The notes beneath the pieces are model-generated. The model ran no database searches. It saw only the letters and a program-made list of their open reading frames with translations, and was not told where the DNA came from. DNA of 49,160 nt from an uncultured Nitrosomonadaceae bacterium (GTDB lineage Bacteria; Pseudomonadota; Gammaproteobacteria; Burkholderiales; Nitrosomonadaceae): positions 1-49,160 of the forward strand of contig CAJQRL010000003.1 in the NCBI GenBank assembly GCA_905612245.1. Reading direction: 5' to 3'. Shown here piece after piece: positions 25,235 through 36,321 of the stretch. Both the position numbers and the translations under genes were made by a program. The number at the start of each line of letters is the position of its first letter. The first letter of the stretch is position 1.

Positions 25235-25837
25235 ATGATGGCCGATACTATAAGAACCCATGGAGGCAGACGCTCAGGCGCTGGGCGCAAACCAGGCAAT
25301 AGCATAGCTCAACCCACTACAGTCATACGCGTTCCGGCAAACACGGCTAAAATCATCAAGAGCTTTGTTTCTACTCTAACAGAAGAGCGCCCGTTACAAA
25401 CACACGCTAAGCTCTCTGAGCTAATCCAATTCGTACGAACTAAACAAGATACCGTTTTCCCACTCTACACATCAAAAGTAGCCGCCGGCTTTCCATCTCC
25501 GGCTGATGATCATGTTGAGCAACGGCTCAATCCAAGCGACTATCTCGTGGAAAATGATGCCGCAACTTTCTTCGTACGCGTCAAAGGTGACTCAATGACA
25601 GAGGCCGGCATCTTCGATAATGATGTGCTAATTATTGACCGCTCAAGAACCCAGCAGAATGGAGATATTGTCCTTGCAATACTAGATGGGGAATTTACCG
25701 TAAAAATTTTGGAGCAGTCTAAAAAAGGTGTAACCCTTATTCCGGCTAACCAAAATTATTCAGTTATTGAAATCAAAGAAGAACAGTCCTTTGAAATCTG
25801 GGGCGTTGTCACCGGATCCATGCGGAAATTTAAATGA
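25235..25837 (+). CDS. umuD: UmuD-like S24 peptidase with extended N-terminus
   Basis: The SOS mutagenesis subunit that cleaves itself when RecA filaments form and then joins UmuC to make DNA polymerase V. The predicted cleavage site is Ala84-Gly85 in KVAAGFPSP, with catalytic Ser120 in GDSMTEAGI and Lys157 in DGEFTVKIL. The protein has about 200 residues, versus ~140 in E. coli. The extra N-terminal ~60 residues begin with a Gly/Arg-rich [14 protein letters not shown] and a TTVIRVP strand, suggesting a DNA-binding element. Two adjacent ATGs exist. Its stop overlaps umuC by four bases. Confidence 0.88.
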
Positions 25838-27120
25838 ACCGCTCTATCGCTCTCGTCGACTGTAATAATTTTTATGTAAGTTGTGAACGAGTATTTAATC
25901 CGAAATTGAAAAATAAATCAGTAGTAGTGCTTTCCAATAATGATGGTTGTGCAGTTGCCAGAAGCGAAGAGGTAAAAGCACTTGGCGTGAGAATGGGAGA
26001 GCCTTGGTTTCAGTTTAAGCACTTAGCAAAAAAACATAACATTATTACCTGTTCTTCTAATTATGCACTGTATGCCGATATGTCCGATCGAGTAATGAGC
26101 ATCCTCTCCAAATTTAGCCCTAACCAAGAAATATACTCTATTGATGAATGTTTTCTAGATTTCACGGGATTCTGCGAAGATGACCTGACTAACTATGCAC
26201 AAAAGATCTGTAGGTGCATTCAACAACAAACGGGGTTACCTGTATGCATAGGAATTGGAACATCAAAAACACTAGCAAAGCTTGCGAACCATATTGCTAA
26301 AAAAAATTTATCATTCCAAGGTGTATGCAACTTCAATGCCATGGCGATACAGGAACAAGATAAATGGCTACACAAGATTAAAGTTGGAAAGGTATGGGGT
26401 GTTGGCAAAAAAATTGCGCCAAAATTACAACAGATTGGTATTTACAAAATAGGTGACCTGAAAAATATTAATCCGAGCATACTAAATTTGCAGTTTTCTG
26501 TCTCTTTGAAAAAAACCATCTACGAACTTAATAATATAGTTTGTTTTGAATTGGAGGAGACAACTGCGCAAAAGAAACAGATAACCTGCTCCCGCTCTTT
26601 TGGTGTACTGATAACTAGTTTTAAAAGTCTAGAACAATCCATGGCTCTCTATGTCAGTCGCGCTGCTGAGAAATTACGCCGACAAAATTTATATACGGGA
26701 TCAATCCATATTTATATCTGTACCAGTCCATTCAATAAGAAAGAATCTTGTTACGAAAACAGCGTAACAATCCCATTACCAGAGCAAACAGACAACACCC
26801 TGAAACTTATACAACTTTCATCATTCGGACTGCGTAAAATTTACCGAAACGGATATAAATACCAAAAGGCGGGAGTCATCCTATCTAAACTTGTATCAAG
26901 CAAAGAACGCCAACCCGACCTGTTTAGTAAAAAGGATGGGCGAAAAAAGTCAGATAGCCTAATGGCAGCACTAGATCAAATTAACGAACTGATGGGAAAG
27001 AAAATATTGATAATTGCAGCCGAGGGAATAACACAACCATGGAAGATGAGACAAAGCAACATGAGCCCAAAATATACGACTAACTGGAATGATTTGATAG
27101 TAGCTAGTCAGTTTATATAA
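25834..27120 (+). CDS. umuC: DNA polymerase V catalytic subunit UmuC
   Basis: A Y-family translesion polymerase of 428 residues. The catalytic acidic residues lie in [16 protein letters not shown] (Asp9) and [10 protein letters not shown] (Asp104, Glu105). The [17 protein letters not shown] stretch, the helix-hairpin-helix-type thumb ([18 protein letters not shown]) and the little-finger region follow. A C-terminal QPDLFSK is a probable clamp-binding motif. It overlaps umuD by ATGA. It looks intact. Confidence 0.94.
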
Positions 27121-27350
27121 AGAAGTTCTGAGCCAGGGTTAGATTTCCATAATTTATACAACAGTGGGTTCTAAAACCCTGCAAAAACTCCATAAATTTG
27201 ATTTGCTGGTAGATTAAAGCTCCTATAATTAAACTAGAGTATCCCGTTAACCTATATGGGCGGTAGGCTCTCATATTTAATTTATGCAACTTACGTGCTA
27301 AAATGTGATCATATAGATAGTTTAACAAGATATTAAACAAGGAGAACAAC

Positions 27351-28289
27351 ATAAAGACCATACTTGCTAATCCGAGAGGGTTCTGTGCCGGTGTAGTACG
27401 CGCCGTAGAAATTGTGGAGCAAGCACTGTTACTTTATGGGGCTCCAATTTATGTTCTACACCAGATTGTTCATAATCAACAGGTAATCCAAGACCTGGAA
27501 GCACGCGGAGTCATTTTTACCGAAGATATGAAGAGCATCCCACCCAGAACGGTAACTGTTCTCAGTGCTCATGGCGTATCTGATGCCGTTATGGAAACTG
27601 CCCAAGCTCAAGATTTGGAAATTATCGACGCGACTTGTCCGCTTGTTACCAAGGTCCATTTACAAGCTAAGCGTTATAGCAAAAGTGGACATGAAGTGGT
27701 AATTATTGGCCATCGGGGCCATGTTGAAGTGGAAGGAACATACGGGCGAGTGCCCGGAACAGTCCATGTAGTTGGTACTGTAGAAGATGTTCAGGCTCTA
27801 GTGGTTTCTGATCCGAAGCATGTATCCTATGTAACCCAAACTACCCTTAGTCTAGATGATACGCGTTCCATCGTGCAGGCCCTGAAAGATCGTTTTCCGG
27901 AAGTAAAGGGTCCTGAGTTGTCCGATATCTGCTATGCAACACAAAACCGCCAGAATGCTGTGCGGAGTCTTGCAGAAAAAGTTGATGTCATTTTGGTGGT
28001 CGGCGCTAGAAATAGTTCTAATTCTGCCCGTTTACAGGAAGTAGGTGAAATGAGTGGCGTAGATGCTTATTTAATTCAAGATGCTAACGAAATTTCACCA
28101 GAATGGTTTGCTAATAGCTCGGACATAGGTGTAACTGCCGGCGCCTCCACTCCAGAAATATTAGTACAGGGTGTTCTTGATCGTTTGCGGAGTCTTGGAG
28201 TGAACAGTATCGAAGAGATGGAAGGAGTATCGGAAGACATCACGTTTAAGCTTCCCGCATCGCTATTGAGAGAACAGAAACCTTTGTAA
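27351..28289 (+). CDS. ispH: 4-hydroxy-3-methylbut-2-enyl diphosphate reductase IspH, apparent AUA start
   Basis: The last enzyme of the MEP pathway, a [4Fe-4S] reductase making IPP and DMAPP. The three cluster cysteines are Cys12 (NPRGFCAGVV), Cys96 (DATCPLV) and Cys194 (DICYATQ); GHRGHVEVEGTYG has the active-site Glu. The first canonical start in frame is GTG 27414, but that would remove Cys12. Upstream, the frame stays conserved to an ATA at 27351 that sits 6-7 bases after AAGGAG, and no ATG, GTG or TTG occurs between it and the stop at 27318. So the gene either starts at AUA or the ATA is a sequence error for ATG. It heads the hopanoid locus. Confidence 0.9.
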   Translation: MKTILANPRGFCAGVVRAVEIVEQALLLYGAPIYVLHQIVHNQQVIQDLEARGVIFTEDMKSIPPRTVTVLSAHGVSDAVMETAQAQDLEIIDATCPLVTKVHLQAKRYSKSGHEVVIIGHRGHVEVEGTYGRVPGTVHVVGTVEDVQALVVSDPKHVSYVTQTTLSLDDTRSIVQALKDRFPEVKGPELSDICYATQNRQNAVRSLAEKVDVILVVGARNSSNSARLQEVGEMSGVDAYLIQDANEISPEWFANSSDIGVTAGASTPEILVQGVLDRLRSLGVNSIEEMEGVSEDITFKLPASLLREQKPL

Positions 28290-28379: not shown

Positions 28380-29489
28380 ATGGGAGTTCCAATACGTCAA
28401 CAGCTAGCTGTGGCCAATTATTTATTAAAGCAAAAATTTAATGGGGTAAAAAAATACCCGATGGTTTTAATGCTGGAACCACTCTTTCGTTGTAATCTGG
28501 CCTGTGGAGGTTGTGGGAAAATAGATTACCCTGAAGAGACTCTAGACAAGCGTCTTACATATGAAGAATGCATGCAGGCTGTCGATGAATGTGGCGCGCC
28601 AATGGTATCAATTCCAGGTGGAGAGCCATTGATCCACAAAGAAATGCCGCAAATAGTTGAGGGCATTATAGCGCGTAAAAAATATATCTATCTATGTACA
28701 AATGCGCTCTTATTGAAAAAGAGAATTGGTGATTATAAGCCATCCCCCTATTTAACTTTTTCTGTCCATCTGGATGGAATGAAAGAAAGGCATGATAATT
28801 CTGTCTGTCAAGATGGAGTATTTGATCGAGCAGTTGAGGCTATAAAGATAGCTGTAAAAAAAGGCTTTAGAGTCACTGTGAACTGCACTCTATTTCAAGG
28901 TGAGACCCCGGAAGATGTTGCTGAATTCCTTGATTACGCTATGACTCTAGGCATAGAGGGGGCAACTATTGCACCCGGATTTAGTTATGAAAAAGCACCC
29001 CAGCAAGATGTATTTATTAAAGGCGAAGACACCAAGAATCTGTTCCGAGGTATTTTTAAACTTGGCAAAAAACGGGATTGGAAATTAAACCATTCGACGC
29101 TATATCTTGATTTTCTTGCAGGCAATCAGAGCTATGATTGCACTCCATGGGGAAACCCAACCCGTAATATATTTGGCTGGCAGAAACCCTGCTATTTACT
29201 ATCAGATGAAGGCTATGCATCTAGTTTTAAAGAGCTTCTAGATGACACTCCTTGGGAGAAGTATGGGAATACTAATAACCCAAAATGTGTGCAATGTATG
29301 GCGCACTGTGGTTATGAAGCAACTGCAGTTGAAGATATGTTGCAAAATCCTCTGAAAGGACTATTTACATCTATACGGGGTCCAAAAACTGTAGGAGCAA
29401 TGGTAGCTGAGCCAGTTCCTAAATGGATAACCGAAGAACAAGGGAAAAAAAGTACACTTTCAGAAATCCCTGTTACAGTTAAACTGTAG
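28380..29489 (+). CDS. hpnH: Adenosyl-hopene transferase HpnH (radical SAM)
   Basis: It links the 5'-deoxyadenosyl group of S-adenosylmethionine to diploptene, giving adenosylhopane, the first step to C35 hopanoids. The radical SAM cluster motif is FRCNLACGGCGK (Cys38, 42, 45), followed by SIPGGEPLIH. The C-terminal part carries more cysteines (NPKCVQCMAHCGYE). The 369 residues fit the HpnH family, including the opening MGVPIRQQLAV. ATG 28380 is preferred over TTG 28374, given GGAG at 28366-28369. It lies 90 bases downstream of ispH and ends before a strong terminator. Confidence 0.94.
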   Translation: MGVPIRQQLAVANYLLKQKFNGVKKYPMVLMLEPLFRCNLACGGCGKIDYPEETLDKRLTYEECMQAVDECGAPMVSIPGGEPLIHKEMPQIVEGIIARKKYIYLCTNALLLKKRIGDYKPSPYLTFSVHLDGMKERHDNSVCQDGVFDRAVEAIKIAVKKGFRVTVNCTLFQGETPEDVAEFLDYAMTLGIEGATIAPGFSYEKAPQQDVFIKGEDTKNLFRGIFKLGKKRDWKLNHSTLYLDFLAGNQSYDCTPWGNPTRNIFGWQKPCYLLSDEGYASSFKELLDDTPWEKYGNTNNPKCVQCMAHCGYEATAVEDMLQNPLKGLFTSIRGPKTVGAMVAEPVPKWITEEQGKKSTLSEIPVTVKL

Positions 29490-30433: not shown

Positions 30434-33082
30434 GTGGAAGCTTCGAAAGGACATATCTACAGTATTTTTGGGCGCTGGGCTGCCGCCTCATATCTCTACG
30501 CACCATGGATACTTCTTGTGGTAGTGCTTTCCGCTATGAGCTGTTCCGTATATATATCACGTAATCTTGGTATGAATACAGATACCACAGAGATGCTCGC
30601 AGAGCATCTGCCGTTTCGTGTCAATCTGAAACACTACAATAAAACGTTCCCCCAGGAAATGGAGAGCATGTTAGTGGTATTAGATGCCCCTACACCGGAA
30701 CAAGCATATGCTACCGCCAGCCGTCTTTCCTCTCTCCTAAGAAATGACACGCAGAATTTTCAAGATGTCTATGCCCCAAATGTAGACTCTTTCTTCATAC
30801 AGAATAGCTTGCTCTACGAAAGTATTCCCGAGCTGGAAAAGATAGCTGACCATATGGCAAATGCACAACCACTTATTGCCCATATTGCTCGGGATCCAAC
30901 ATTACAAACTTTTATCTCTGTACTCTCAGGAGCAACAGATGAATTGCGTAAGGGACGTAACCTGGAACTGGGGCCCTTATTTCATAGTTTGAGTGATACT
31001 TTAAATGCCAGGCTTACAGGGATGCCACGCATTCTCTCGTGGCAAGAGCTATTCCGAGGAAAGCCACAAAAGAACAGATATCAAGAATTTCTTATGGTAA
31101 AACCAAAACAGGATTTTACCCAGCTATACCCAGCTGAAAAATCAATTTCTGCACTAAGGGCTGCTGCATCTCAAATTGGCCTAACAAAAGATAGCCCTAT
31201 ACAAATGCGCATTACTGGTGAGGTGGCCTTAGCTGATGAAGAACTCAACAGCTCACTGCGCGGCATGGAGTATGCGGGAATAATTACATTTGTACTAATT
31301 ACATTAGTACTTTTTTTTGCAATGCGTACGATTAGGATGTTACTTGCTGTAATAATCTGTCTTATCTTAGGTCTGATTTTTACTGCAGCTTTTGCTACTG
31401 CTGCAATCGGCCACCTGAATATTATTTCTATCGCTTTTGCAATACTGTACATTGGTCTTGGCGCTGATTTTGCAATCCATTTTCTATTACGGCACAGAGA
31501 AATAATAGAGAGCGGCCTATCAAAAAAAGATGCTATCTACGAATCTGGAAGTGTAGCTGGGGGCGCATTAACTGTATGCGCCCTAACTAACGCTATTGCC
31601 TTCTATGCTTTTATACCTACTGATTTCAGCGGAGTAGCTGAATTAGGAGTGATTTCTGGTACTGGGATGCTGATTAGTCTACTGGTTACCCTTACTATTG
31701 GCCCTGCTCTGCTGCGCTATATACCCAAACACTCTAAATTTGAATCCAACATTGATACCGCTCTTAGCAGAGTACTCGAAACATCATTCAAATGGCAAAA
31801 ATTAATATATACCGCTATTTTCATTGGACTACTATCTGCTGTCATGCTCTTTCCTCAGTTAAAATTTGACTATAATTTATTAAATATGCAAGACCGTAAA
31901 GGAGAGGCTGTAAAGACCTTTAAGGAATTACTGTCGGAAGTAGATAACTCTCCCTGGTATGTGGCTGTATTAGCTGGAAATCGTAAAGAAGCAGATCTTC
32001 TGGTAGAAGGTCTAACAAAACTAAAGGAGGTAAAAAAAGTAGTAACTATTCTTAATTTTGTACCAGAAGAACAGGAAATGAAACTCCCACTTATTGAAGA
32101 AATGGCAATTACCACCGGGCCGATCACCATATCTACGCCATCGCAAGTGAATAATAAACAAGCACTGATAAAACAACAAAAAGAATTAGATAAGCTTAAT
32201 GTCACTCTAGATCATTTCATTGCTGAAAAGCCTGACCATATTTTATTAATTCCTGCCCGCACCCTGAAGAATTCATTGGCAGCACTTTTTGAGCATCTTA
32301 ACAAAAATGATACTGCAAATAGGGAGAAACTATTACATTCGGTAGAAGAAGATTTACTCGTAACTTTACCTACTTCTTTACAACGGATGCAGACTGCTAT
32401 TGAAGCCTCTACCACATTCAGTAAAGAAGATCTTCCAGCACCTTTAATAAGTCGCTGGTACAGCCATGCCGACGAATACAAAATAGCTGTCTACCCGTCA
32501 GAGGATATAGATGACAACGATGCATTAAAACGCTTTGTTCGAGCGGTGCAAAAAGTTGCGCCGCAAGCCACTGGAGGTCCCATGGTAAGCCTGGCAGCTG
32601 GTGAAGCTGTCGTACAAGCATTCATACAAGCATTTTCATTGGCTTTAGCTGGCATAGTGATAGCGCTATTAATCTTATTGCGGAGTGTAAAATATACTCT
32701 TCTGGTACTAGTCCCACTTCTTCTTTCAAGTATATTTATTGGTATTTTCTCCGTATTGTTCAATCTACCATTTAATTTTGCAAATATTATTGCTCTTCCG
32801 TTATTGCTCGGCATTGGATTAGATAGTAGCCTACATATGGTTCACCGGAGTCGTAGTGATAAACTAGTCGGCGAAACTCTAGCCCATACTAGTACAGTAC
32901 GCGCCGTTTTTTATAGCGCTCTTACTTCCCTTGTCACCTTTGCAAGCTTAATGCTCTCTTCCCATCAAGGCACTGCCAGCATGGGAATATTACTTACTGT
33001 AGGATTGACCTGCACCCTTATCTGTACGCTCTTTATATTACCTGTTTTGTTAAATGCCTCAACCAAAAAAATAGAAGCCTAA
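30434..33082 (+). CDS. hpnN: Hopanoid biosynthesis-associated RND transporter HpnN
   Basis: An inner-membrane RND-superfamily protein of 882 residues with two repeats, each of one span, a large periplasmic loop and a five-span bundle, including YIGLGADFAIHFLLRHR in the first and LPLLLGIGLDSSLHMVHR in the second. These charged residues in mid-membrane helices are typical of the MMPL/HpnN branch. In Rhodopseudomonas, HpnN is needed to move hopanoids to the outer membrane. The start is GTG 30434 with GAAGGA upstream. It probably shares an operon with hpnM. Confidence 0.92.
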   Translation: MEASKGHIYSIFGRWAAASYLYAPWILLVVVLSAMSCSVYISRNLGMNTDTTEMLAEHLPFRVNLKHYNKTFPQEMESMLVVLDAPTPEQAYATASRLSSLLRNDTQNFQDVYAPNVDSFFIQNSLLYESIPELEKIADHMANAQPLIAHIARDPTLQTFISVLSGATDELRKGRNLELGPLFHSLSDTLNARLTGMPRILSWQELFRGKPQKNRYQEFLMVKPKQDFTQLYPAEKSISALRAAASQIGLTKDSPIQMRITGEVALADEELNSSLRGMEYAGIITFVLITLVLFFAMRTIRMLLAVIICLILGLIFTAAFATAAIGHLNIISIAFAILYIGLGADFAIHFLLRHREIIESGLSKKDAIYESGSVAGGALTVCALTNAIAFYAFIPTDFSGVAELGVISGTGMLISLLVTLTIGPALLRYIPKHSKFESNIDTALSRVLETSFKWQKLIYTAIFIGLLSAVMLFPQLKFDYNLLNMQDRKGEAVKTFKELLSEVDNSPWYVAVLAGNRKEADLLVEGLTKLKEVKKVVTILNFVPEEQEMKLPLIEEMAITTGPITISTPSQVNNKQALIKQQKELDKLNVTLDHFIAEKPDHILLIPARTLKNSLAALFEHLNKNDTANREKLLHSVEEDLLVTLPTSLQRMQTAIEASTTFSKEDLPAPLISRWYSHADEYKIAVYPSEDIDDNDALKRFVRAVQKVAPQATGGPMVSLAAGEAVVQAFIQAFSLALAGIVIALLILLRSVKYTLLVLVPLLLSSIFIGIFSVLFNLPFNFANIIALPLLLGIGLDSSLHMVHRSRSDKLVGETLAHTSTVRAVFYSALTSLVTFASLMLSSHQGTASMGILLTVGLTCTLICTLFILPVLLNASTKKIEA

Positions 33083-34335: not shown

Positions 34336-36321
34336 ATGAAAGAAACAGATAACGCTCTTACTGATCTGAGCCAGGAAGATACTAGTTCTACGTCTGACAC
34401 AACCACCTTTAACTGCCAGCAGCCATCAAATCTTGACGAGAAGGAACTAGCTGATGCCTTGGCATCAGCACGTAAAGCATTACTAGCCTTACAAAAAGAA
34501 GATGGTCACTGGTGCTTCCCACTTGAGGCAGATTGTACTATTCCAGCCGAATACATATTGATGATGCATTTCATGGATGATATAGATACTGACCTTGAAA
34601 TAAAATTAGCTCGGTTTATCAGAACAAAGCAGGACACAGAGCATGGTGGGTGGCCTCTATACTATGGCGGTCACTTTGATATGAGTTGTACTGTCAAAGC
34701 TTACTATGCATTAAAGTTAGTCGGTGATTCCCCAGAGGACCCACATATGGCAGCTGCTCGTACAGCTATTCTGTCACATGGTGGCGCATCAAAAGCAAAT
34801 GTTTTTACCAGAACCTTACTTGCCATGTACGGCCAACTCCCCTGGCGTGGTGTTCCTTTTATGCCAGTAGAGATTATTTTATTGCCGAAGTGGTTCCCAT
34901 TTCATCTGAGTAAAGTTGCTTATTGGTCACGTACGGTGACGGTACCGCTGACAATATTATCTAGCTTAAGAGCAAAGGCTGCTAATCCAAATAAAATTAA
35001 TGTTCGTGAGCTTTTCACCATAGACCCGGAAAAAGAACGTGATTATTTCCCAGTACGTACTCCTCTAAACCGATTATTCTTATTTATTGAACGTACTGCT
35101 TCACTATTTGAGCCATTTATTCCGAATATCTTACGTCGAATTGCTTTACGCCGAGCAGAGCGCTGGATAATAGAGAGACTTAATGGCGAATGCGGTCTAG
35201 GAGCAATTTTCCCTGCAATGGTAAATGCAAATGAGGCGCTTGCATTGCTAGGTTATCCCTATGAACATCCGTACAGAGAACAGTGCCGTCAAGCTTTATT
35301 AGGACTATTAGTTGACGATGGCGAGCAAGCCTGGTGTCAACCATGCACATCGCCTGTGTGGGATACCGTCCTTGCAAGCTTAGCATTACAGGAGGATATT
35401 GGCGCAGATCAAACGCCGGTCCGAAATGCTCTTGACTGGTTAGTCCCTCTCCAGATACTAGACGCCCCTGCAGACTGGCGGGAAGAAAATATAAAATTGG
35501 CTGGTGGTGGCTGGGCTTTTCAATACGCAAACCCACATTACCCTGATCTTGACGATACAGCAGCGATAGCCTGGGCAATGCACCAAGCGGACCCTCATAT
35601 TTATCATAAGAGTTTATCAAGAGCTGCTAGCTGGCTTAGCGGTATGCAATCTAAAAATGGTGGATTTGCTGCCTTTGATGTCGATAATACTTATTATTAC
35701 CTTAACGAAATTCCATTCTCTGATCATGGCGCTTTACTTGATCCGCCCACTAGTGACGTCAGTGCCCGTTGTACTGGTTTTCTGGCTTTATATGGAAACC
35801 CTGAGCAACAAGATTCAATGAAGCAGGGGTTATCGTATTTATTCAATGAGCAAGAACCGAGTGGTGCCTGGTTTGGCCGGTGGGGGAGCAATTATATTTA
35901 TGGAACCTGGTCAGTACTAGAATCTTTCAGATTAGCAAAAATAGATACTTCCCATGAATCCATTATTCGTGCTGCAAAGTGGTTAAAATCGGTTCAGAGA
36001 GAAGATGGCGGATGGGGTGAGAACAATGATACCTACTTTGCACCAAAACTAGCAGGGCTCTTCAGAACAAGTACTTCATTTCAGACTGCCTGGGCTTTAC
36101 TTGGACTAATGGCAGCAGGAGAAACAAATAGCGAAGAAGTTAGCAAAGGAATCAAATATCTTCTAAGCAAGCAGGATAGTAATGGATTATGGGATGACCC
36201 ATGGTTCACAGCGCCGGGATTTCCAAGAGTTTTCTATTTAAAATATCACGGATATTCAAAGTATTTCCCATTGTGGGCTCTAGCAAGATATAAGGCATTT
36301 ACCCAGAAGGATATTAGGTGA
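34336..36321 (+). CDS. shc: Squalene-hopene cyclase
   Basis: It cyclises squalene to hopene (and hopanol) in a single membrane-bound reaction. The catalytic acid motif DLDDTAA (Asp404, 406, 407) is present, and several QW repeats are visible, for example ALQKEDGHWCFPLEAD, SVQREDGGWGENND and LSKQDSNGLWDDPWF. The 661 residues match the family plus a ~35-residue polar N-terminal extension rich in Ser/Thr. AAGGGA precedes the ATG. The stop overlaps the next gene's GTG by four bases, so hpnG is coupled. Confidence 0.96.
   Translation: MKETDNALTDLSQEDTSSTSDTTTFNCQQPSNLDEKELADALASARKALLALQKEDGHWCFPLEADCTIPAEYILMMHFMDDIDTDLEIKLARFIRTKQDTEHGGWPLYYGGHFDMSCTVKAYYALKLVGDSPEDPHMAAARTAILSHGGASKANVFTRTLLAMYGQLPWRGVPFMPVEIILLPKWFPFHLSKVAYWSRTVTVPLTILSSLRAKAANPNKINVRELFTIDPEKERDYFPVRTPLNRLFLFIERTASLFEPFIPNILRRIALRRAERWIIERLNGECGLGAIFPAMVNANEALALLGYPYEHPYREQCRQALLGLLVDDGEQAWCQPCTSPVWDTVLASLALQEDIGADQTPVRNALDWLVPLQILDAPADWREENIKLAGGGWAFQYANPHYPDLDDTAAIAWAMHQADPHIYHKSLSRAASWLSGMQSKNGGFAAFDVDNTYYYLNEIPFSDHGALLDPPTSDVSARCTGFLALYGNPEQQDSMKQGLSYLFNEQEPSGAWFGRWGSNYIYGTWSVLESFRLAKIDTSHESIIRAAKWLKSVQREDGGWGENNDTYFAPKLAGLFRTSTSFQTAWALLGLMAAGETNSEEVSKGIKYLLSKQDSNGLWDDPWFTAPGFPRVFYLKYHGYSKYFPLWALARYKAFTQKDIR

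Follow-up and report, generated by a model that had tools for sequence, protein, structure and literature searches.

In the window, which is the whole stretch of 49,160 nucleotides analysed here, ispH (lytB) is the first gene of a hopanoid cluster that also includes hpnH, hpnN and shc (Table 1). A umuD/umuC-like pair is located directly 5' of ispH (25235-27120), and its UmuC-like protein is at most 52% identical to the Y-family polymerases of a plasmid collection. The open reading frame listing gives GTG 27414 as the first start of ispH. A sequence-only reading of this DNA had placed the start further upstream, at an ATA shortly after a strong Shine-Dalgarno sequence, and the window bases bear this out: AAGGAG is followed by the 6-nt spacer AACAAC (27345-27350) and then by the ATA. 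The in-frame codons from the upstream TAG to the ATA read TTT AAC AAG ATA TTA AAC AAG GAG AAC AAC, in agreement with the claim of that reading that no canonical start codon lies in this interval, and no ATG, GTG, TTG or CTG occurs among the in-frame codons from TAG 27318 as far as GTG 27414. The same reading had argued that a start at this GTG would remove Cys12 from IspH, and it is right, since the GTG is downstream of the TGT codon.

Table 1. Features of the ispH locus in the window.
Feature	Position	Strand	Basis
Block TTATGCAACTTACGTGCTAAAAT 5' of ispH, ending in a -10-like TAAAAT	27282..27304	+	nearly invariant in 6/6 genus copies
In-frame TAG closing the ispH frame upstream	27318..27320	+	
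Shine-Dalgarno AAGGAG	27339..27344	+	6 nt before the ispH ATA
ATA, probable start codon of ispH	27351..27353	+	aligned with sister-genus ATG; ATA in 7/7 genus copies
ispH (lytB), probably AUA-initiated, 312 codons plus stop	27351..28289	+	profile scores, alignment with solved structure
TGT, codon of Cys12 of IspH	27384..27386	+	aligned with solved IspH
GTG, next canonical start of ispH, 3' of Cys12, judged not the start	27414..27416	+	
hpnH, next gene after ispH in the hopanoid cluster, ATG start	28380..29489	+	TIGR03470, 549 bits
hpnN, GTG start	30434..33082	+	TIGR03480, 968 bits
shc, squalene-hopene cyclase	34336..36321	+	TIGR01507, 780 bits

Translated from the ATA, the IspH protein scores 332 bits against TIGR00216 (cut-off 188) and 452 bits against NF002188 (cut-off 420), and a solved IspH aligns with it from residue 3 (E 5.5e-101). 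The cysteines in FCAG, ATCPL and DICYAT align with the three Cys positions of the solved protein, which we take to be the iron-sulphur cluster ligands, Cys12 being the first. Judged from these matches, the enzyme looks intact. Initiation within this frame at a later codon is extremely unlikely. Codon 4 (27360) is also ATA and is also invariant in all seven copies from the genus, but it lies 15 nt from AAGGAG, which is too far by the usual spacing; the earliest canonical codon, GTG 27414, would if used cost the protein a cysteine that is aligned in solved IspH structures.

The nearly invariant block upstream of ispH is possibly its promoter, which would give a leader of about 40 nt. A consensus promoter scan of the + strand made no call, the block included. 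The block is longer than a -10 box needs, and it may include an operator. Between the block and the Shine-Dalgarno sequence, a large part of the leader is variable among the genus copies. In the predicted fold of the leader both AAGGAG and the AUA are unpaired, and the fold is no better than those of shuffled sequences (z 0.43). We also considered a small open reading frame coupled to the ispH ATA. By eye, the +1 frame in the window has a stop 6 codons 5' of the ATA with no start between, and this candidate was rejected. In all seven ispH copies, the ATA together with the next base gives TAA or TAG in the +1 frame.

The ispH start in related genomes

The genus comprises 8 genomes, including that of the window, and is known here from genome assemblies alone. 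The ispH type of the hopanoid cluster is present in 7 of the 8, with protein identities of 86-100%, and all seven species that carry it have ATA at the aligned start. An ATG at this position in members of the genus would have spoken against the AUA start, and none of the seven copies has one. In each of the six copies with upstream sequence, AAGGAG (five copies) or AGGGAG (one) is followed by 6 nt and then by ATA; in G002 the region 5' of the ATA is cut off by the end of the contig. The assembly of the window is fragmented, 1.0 Mb in size and 72% complete, which might raise the suspicion of a sequencing or assembly error, or of a decayed gene. However, because the ATA is found in seven separate species assemblies, a sequencing error is in practice out of the question, and decay is opposed by the open frame, by family scores above the curated cut-offs and by proteins 86-98% identical to that of the window despite heavy synonymous change. 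We give error and decay together a negligible probability. Fourfold sites of ispH differ by 17-61% between pairs of the seven species.

We searched the relatives for an alternative in-frame start upstream of the ATA, the finding on which the sequence-only reading could have failed, and there is no consistent one. In three of the six copies (window, G005 and G003), a stop closes the frame 5' of the ATA and no ATG, GTG, TTG or CTG follows it; a fourth, G006, has a closed frame with CTG as the sole in-frame alternative. These four are without a canonical start near the IspH N-terminus. The other two do have one, a TTG 7 codons 5' of the ATA in G007 and an ATG 15 codons 5' in G001, and a longer form of IspH is thus possible in these two genomes. 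As a general explanation, an N-terminally extended IspH in which the ATA is an ordinary isoleucine codon is very unlikely. The upstream codons of G001 and G007 do not align with each other, the closed frames leave no start codon for such a protein in the window, G005 and G003 and only CTG in G006, and the Shine-Dalgarno sequence would fall within the coding region. Furthermore, the ATG of G001 sits at the -10-like block, so that it is probably untranscribed, and the sister-genus orthologues begin at the ATA column itself.

Those orthologues come from a search of the family, covering 125 genomes in four genera, 124 of which have an IspH match. Among the 9 genomes of the sister genus g4, 5 carry a full-length copy of the orthologous ispH type, with 79-82% identity, and another, G118, has just two short pieces of it. 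All five full-length copies have ATG exactly at the column where the genus has ATA. A canonical start 9-34 codons 5' of the GFC motif is present in 80 of 80 outside ispH homologues (the best 80 of at least 588 confirmed) and in 20 of 20 family copies of the other type; by the same test, it is present in 2 of the 7 genus copies. The simplest history would be that the common ancestor of the genus copies exchanged ATG for ATA.

Two types of IspH, about 50% identical, occur in the family (L009, L010 and L096-L113 versus L002-L008 and L091-L095). G004, the one genus member that lacks the hopanoid-cluster type, has only the 50%-identical IspH, and G001 has both types, where the second copy could be foreign, given 8% contamination in that assembly. 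Of the 7 genomes with the hopanoid-cluster type, 6 yielded no other IspH; these single-IspH genomes include G002 (95% complete), G005 (92%) and G007 (97%), the others being 72-87% complete. The sequence-only reading had raised a second ispH elsewhere in the genome, and a search of the window's own assembly, at 72% completeness, gave a single match. IspG was found in 7 of the 8 genus genomes, the exception being the incomplete one of the window, and HMG-CoA synthase in 0 of the 8. The MEP route is thus apparently the one used, and for this reason IspH is probably essential in the genus.

How much does the constancy of the ATA say by itself? Invariant positions in the seven ispH copies amount to 17 of the 126 fourfold sites and 6 of the 19 isoleucine codons, so the third base of the ATA would stay constant by chance with a probability between about 1/8 and 1/3, which is modest evidence. 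The argument for AUA thus rests on the Shine-Dalgarno sequence, the sister-genus ATG and the closed frames together. From this comparison, AUA 27351 is very probably the real initiation site of ispH. In a literature search whose scope excluded most subscription papers, we found no report of an AUA-initiated ispH, nor of an infC ATA in Legionella.

Initiation machinery and other candidate AUA starts

An altered initiator tRNA or an altered IF3 could each have been the cause of an AUA start, and both were rejected on the basis of six initiator tRNAs and ten IF3 sequences. The anticodon-stem pattern of initiator tRNA, with any anticodon allowed, gave 19 matches in 7 of the 8 genus genomes. Six of these, one each in six genomes, have the anticodon CAT and are called tRNA-Met by ARAGORN, which was applied to these six of the 19. 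There is no match to the pattern in G006, and the single match in the window's own genome is not CAT. The anticodon is thus CAU in all six initiator tRNAs that were read. IF3 is well conserved across the ten sequences aligned, five from members of the genus and five from g2, and shows no obvious loss.

The gene for IF3, infC, was found in 118 of the 125 family genomes and in 7 of the 8 of the genus; it is absent from the matches in the window's own assembly. We read the start in 42 loci, namely seven from the genus (L114-L120), the 30 best-scoring, all of g2 (L160-L189), and five from g4 (L205-L209); these cover three genera of the family, the fourth being g3. It is ATA in 41 of these 42 and ATC in L185. 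The start of infC in E. coli is AUU, and the sequence-only reading had likened the start of ispH to infC with a weak start of this kind. The likeness is closer than was proposed, as ispH has the very start codon, ATA, of infC in its relatives.

The use of AUA elsewhere in the genus was surveyed in 182 non-overlapping reciprocal-best orthologue pairs from part of G007 and part of G001 (earlier passes, 141). A shared start was defined as an ATG, GTG or TTG column between 40 codons before and 20 codons after the start of the conserved core. By this definition, 170 of the 182 pairs have such a canonical column near the N-terminus, in a loose survey in which a common inner Met, Val or Leu codon passes and further ATA starts could be hidden. 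Among the other 12 pairs, inspected by eye, a conserved ATA instead is seen only in ispH, a glcF-like gene and infC, and the remaining 9 are apparent misalignments, poorly conserved N-termini or non-genes, again on visual inspection alone. The neighbourhoods of infC and ispH were chosen on purpose, so the glcF-like gene is the only unbiased find. Within the surveyed part, AUA is not in general use in the genus. Two other candidates, pyrC-like and tsaE-like genes, were rejected, having a TTG common to both genomes, and an ATA just 5' of the hpnN GTG was set aside, as the GTG is a usable start. A Shine-Dalgarno match of at least 6 in both genomes is found in only 4 of the 170 genes that passed the shared-start test; thus, the Shine-Dalgarno sequence of ispH is among the strongest.

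The glcF-like iron-sulphur gene has ATA at its apparent start in all seven genus loci (L210-L216). Its best match is NF008434, glycolate oxidase subunit GlcF, at 166 bits against a cut-off of 333, so the family is uncertain. An in-frame TTG is located 5' of the ATA in four of the seven loci, 4 codons away in L210, L211 and L213 and 5 codons away in L212, which makes the AUA start of this gene less secure than that of ispH. In g4, the column of the ATA holds ACG in 7 of 8 copies and ATG in 1, and two codons earlier there is an ATG (six) or a TTG (two).

Could the AUA of ispH be the start and yet have no regulatory role? In a lineage that tolerates AUA and has a small genome, drift might have fixed it. 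The glcF-like gene, a second metabolic gene that may have an ATA start, is in line with this, as such starts could arise repeatedly, and the invariance of the third base is itself modest evidence of selection. Yet AUA is not general among the orthologue pairs, IF3 and the initiator tRNA look ordinary, and an ATG is one base change away while ATA has been retained in all seven species. Drift is the less probable account, and we keep it as a possible one.

A possible role for the AUA start

The reading that we favour, with some reserve, is that AUA is the real start of ispH with a strong Shine-Dalgarno sequence and that it keeps IspH low and sensitive to IF3, as for infC. This grading covers the whole statement, the regulatory part included, and leaves room for drift. 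In the proposed mechanism, AAGGAG at a 6-nt spacing in an unstructured leader would recruit the 30S subunit, and an ordinary initiator tRNA (CAU) would pair with AUA despite the mismatch at the third position. IF3 would disfavour this mismatch, so that IspH output would be low and would follow IF3 activity up or down, as expected for infC. An ancestral ATG would have given way to ATA before the genus copies diverged, and the ATA would have been kept since. That initiation at this AUA is weak and under the control of IF3 is inferred by analogy with known systems.

One of the closest of these is infC, which is alike in having a weak start against which IF3 would be expected to discriminate. The two are unlike in that ispH does not encode IF3; there would be no direct autoregulatory loop, and any control would be in trans. 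In E. coli, pcnB, a different gene from ispH, has an AUU start, and Binns and Masters in 2002 reportedly found this chromosomal gene to be kept low by its inefficient start.

Conserved AUA starts have already been proven elsewhere, in S. aureus (PMC13009471), and the AUA start of ispH would be a further case. In the same study, AUA-start reporters of ccpN and citZ give about 10% of the AUG output in poor medium, the ccpN AUA reaches up to 30% of AUG in rich medium, infC uses AUA, and AUA and AUU starts have a strong Shine-Dalgarno sequence beside the weak codon (PMC13009471). As described there, the AUA of ccpN is kept across species, in S. aureus and B. subtilis, and resembles that of ispH both in this conservation and in its strong Shine-Dalgarno sequence; however, ccpN is a regulator of Firmicutes studied by ribosome profiling and reporters (PMC13009471), whereas ispH encodes an enzyme and its start is known from comparative sequence alone. 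The citZ gene, like ispH, encodes a metabolic enzyme, but its AUA is described as confined to one strain lineage of S. aureus, NCTC 8325 (PMC13009471), while that of ispH occurs in seven species. It is by analogy with these S. aureus AUA and AUU starts (PMC13009471) that production of IspH would be small and would depend on IF3.

A broader possibility is an AUA-start regulon in the genus, with infC, ispH and the glcF-like iron-sulphur gene read through the same weak codon. If this were true, IF3 activity, and with it the growth state, would jointly set the level of IF3, the isoprenoid and hopanoid supply and a glycolate-oxidase-like step. We regard such a regulon as unlikely, and the TTG codons upstream of the glcF-like ATA lower its weight.

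Under the favoured reading, that of an AUA start holding IspH low, the surprise is that the codon stands on what is usually the only ispH copy found and is common to infC. AUA is left out of lists of start codons made up of ATG, GTG and TTG, and annotation from the first canonical start would truncate IspH past its first cluster cysteine. The codon is expected to cost most of the translation of ispH, and its retention suggests that the enzyme is held low on purpose. A change from ATG to ATA that was kept beside an AUA-started infC would allow metabolic tuning by initiation fidelity, beyond the autoregulation of IF3, to be tested.
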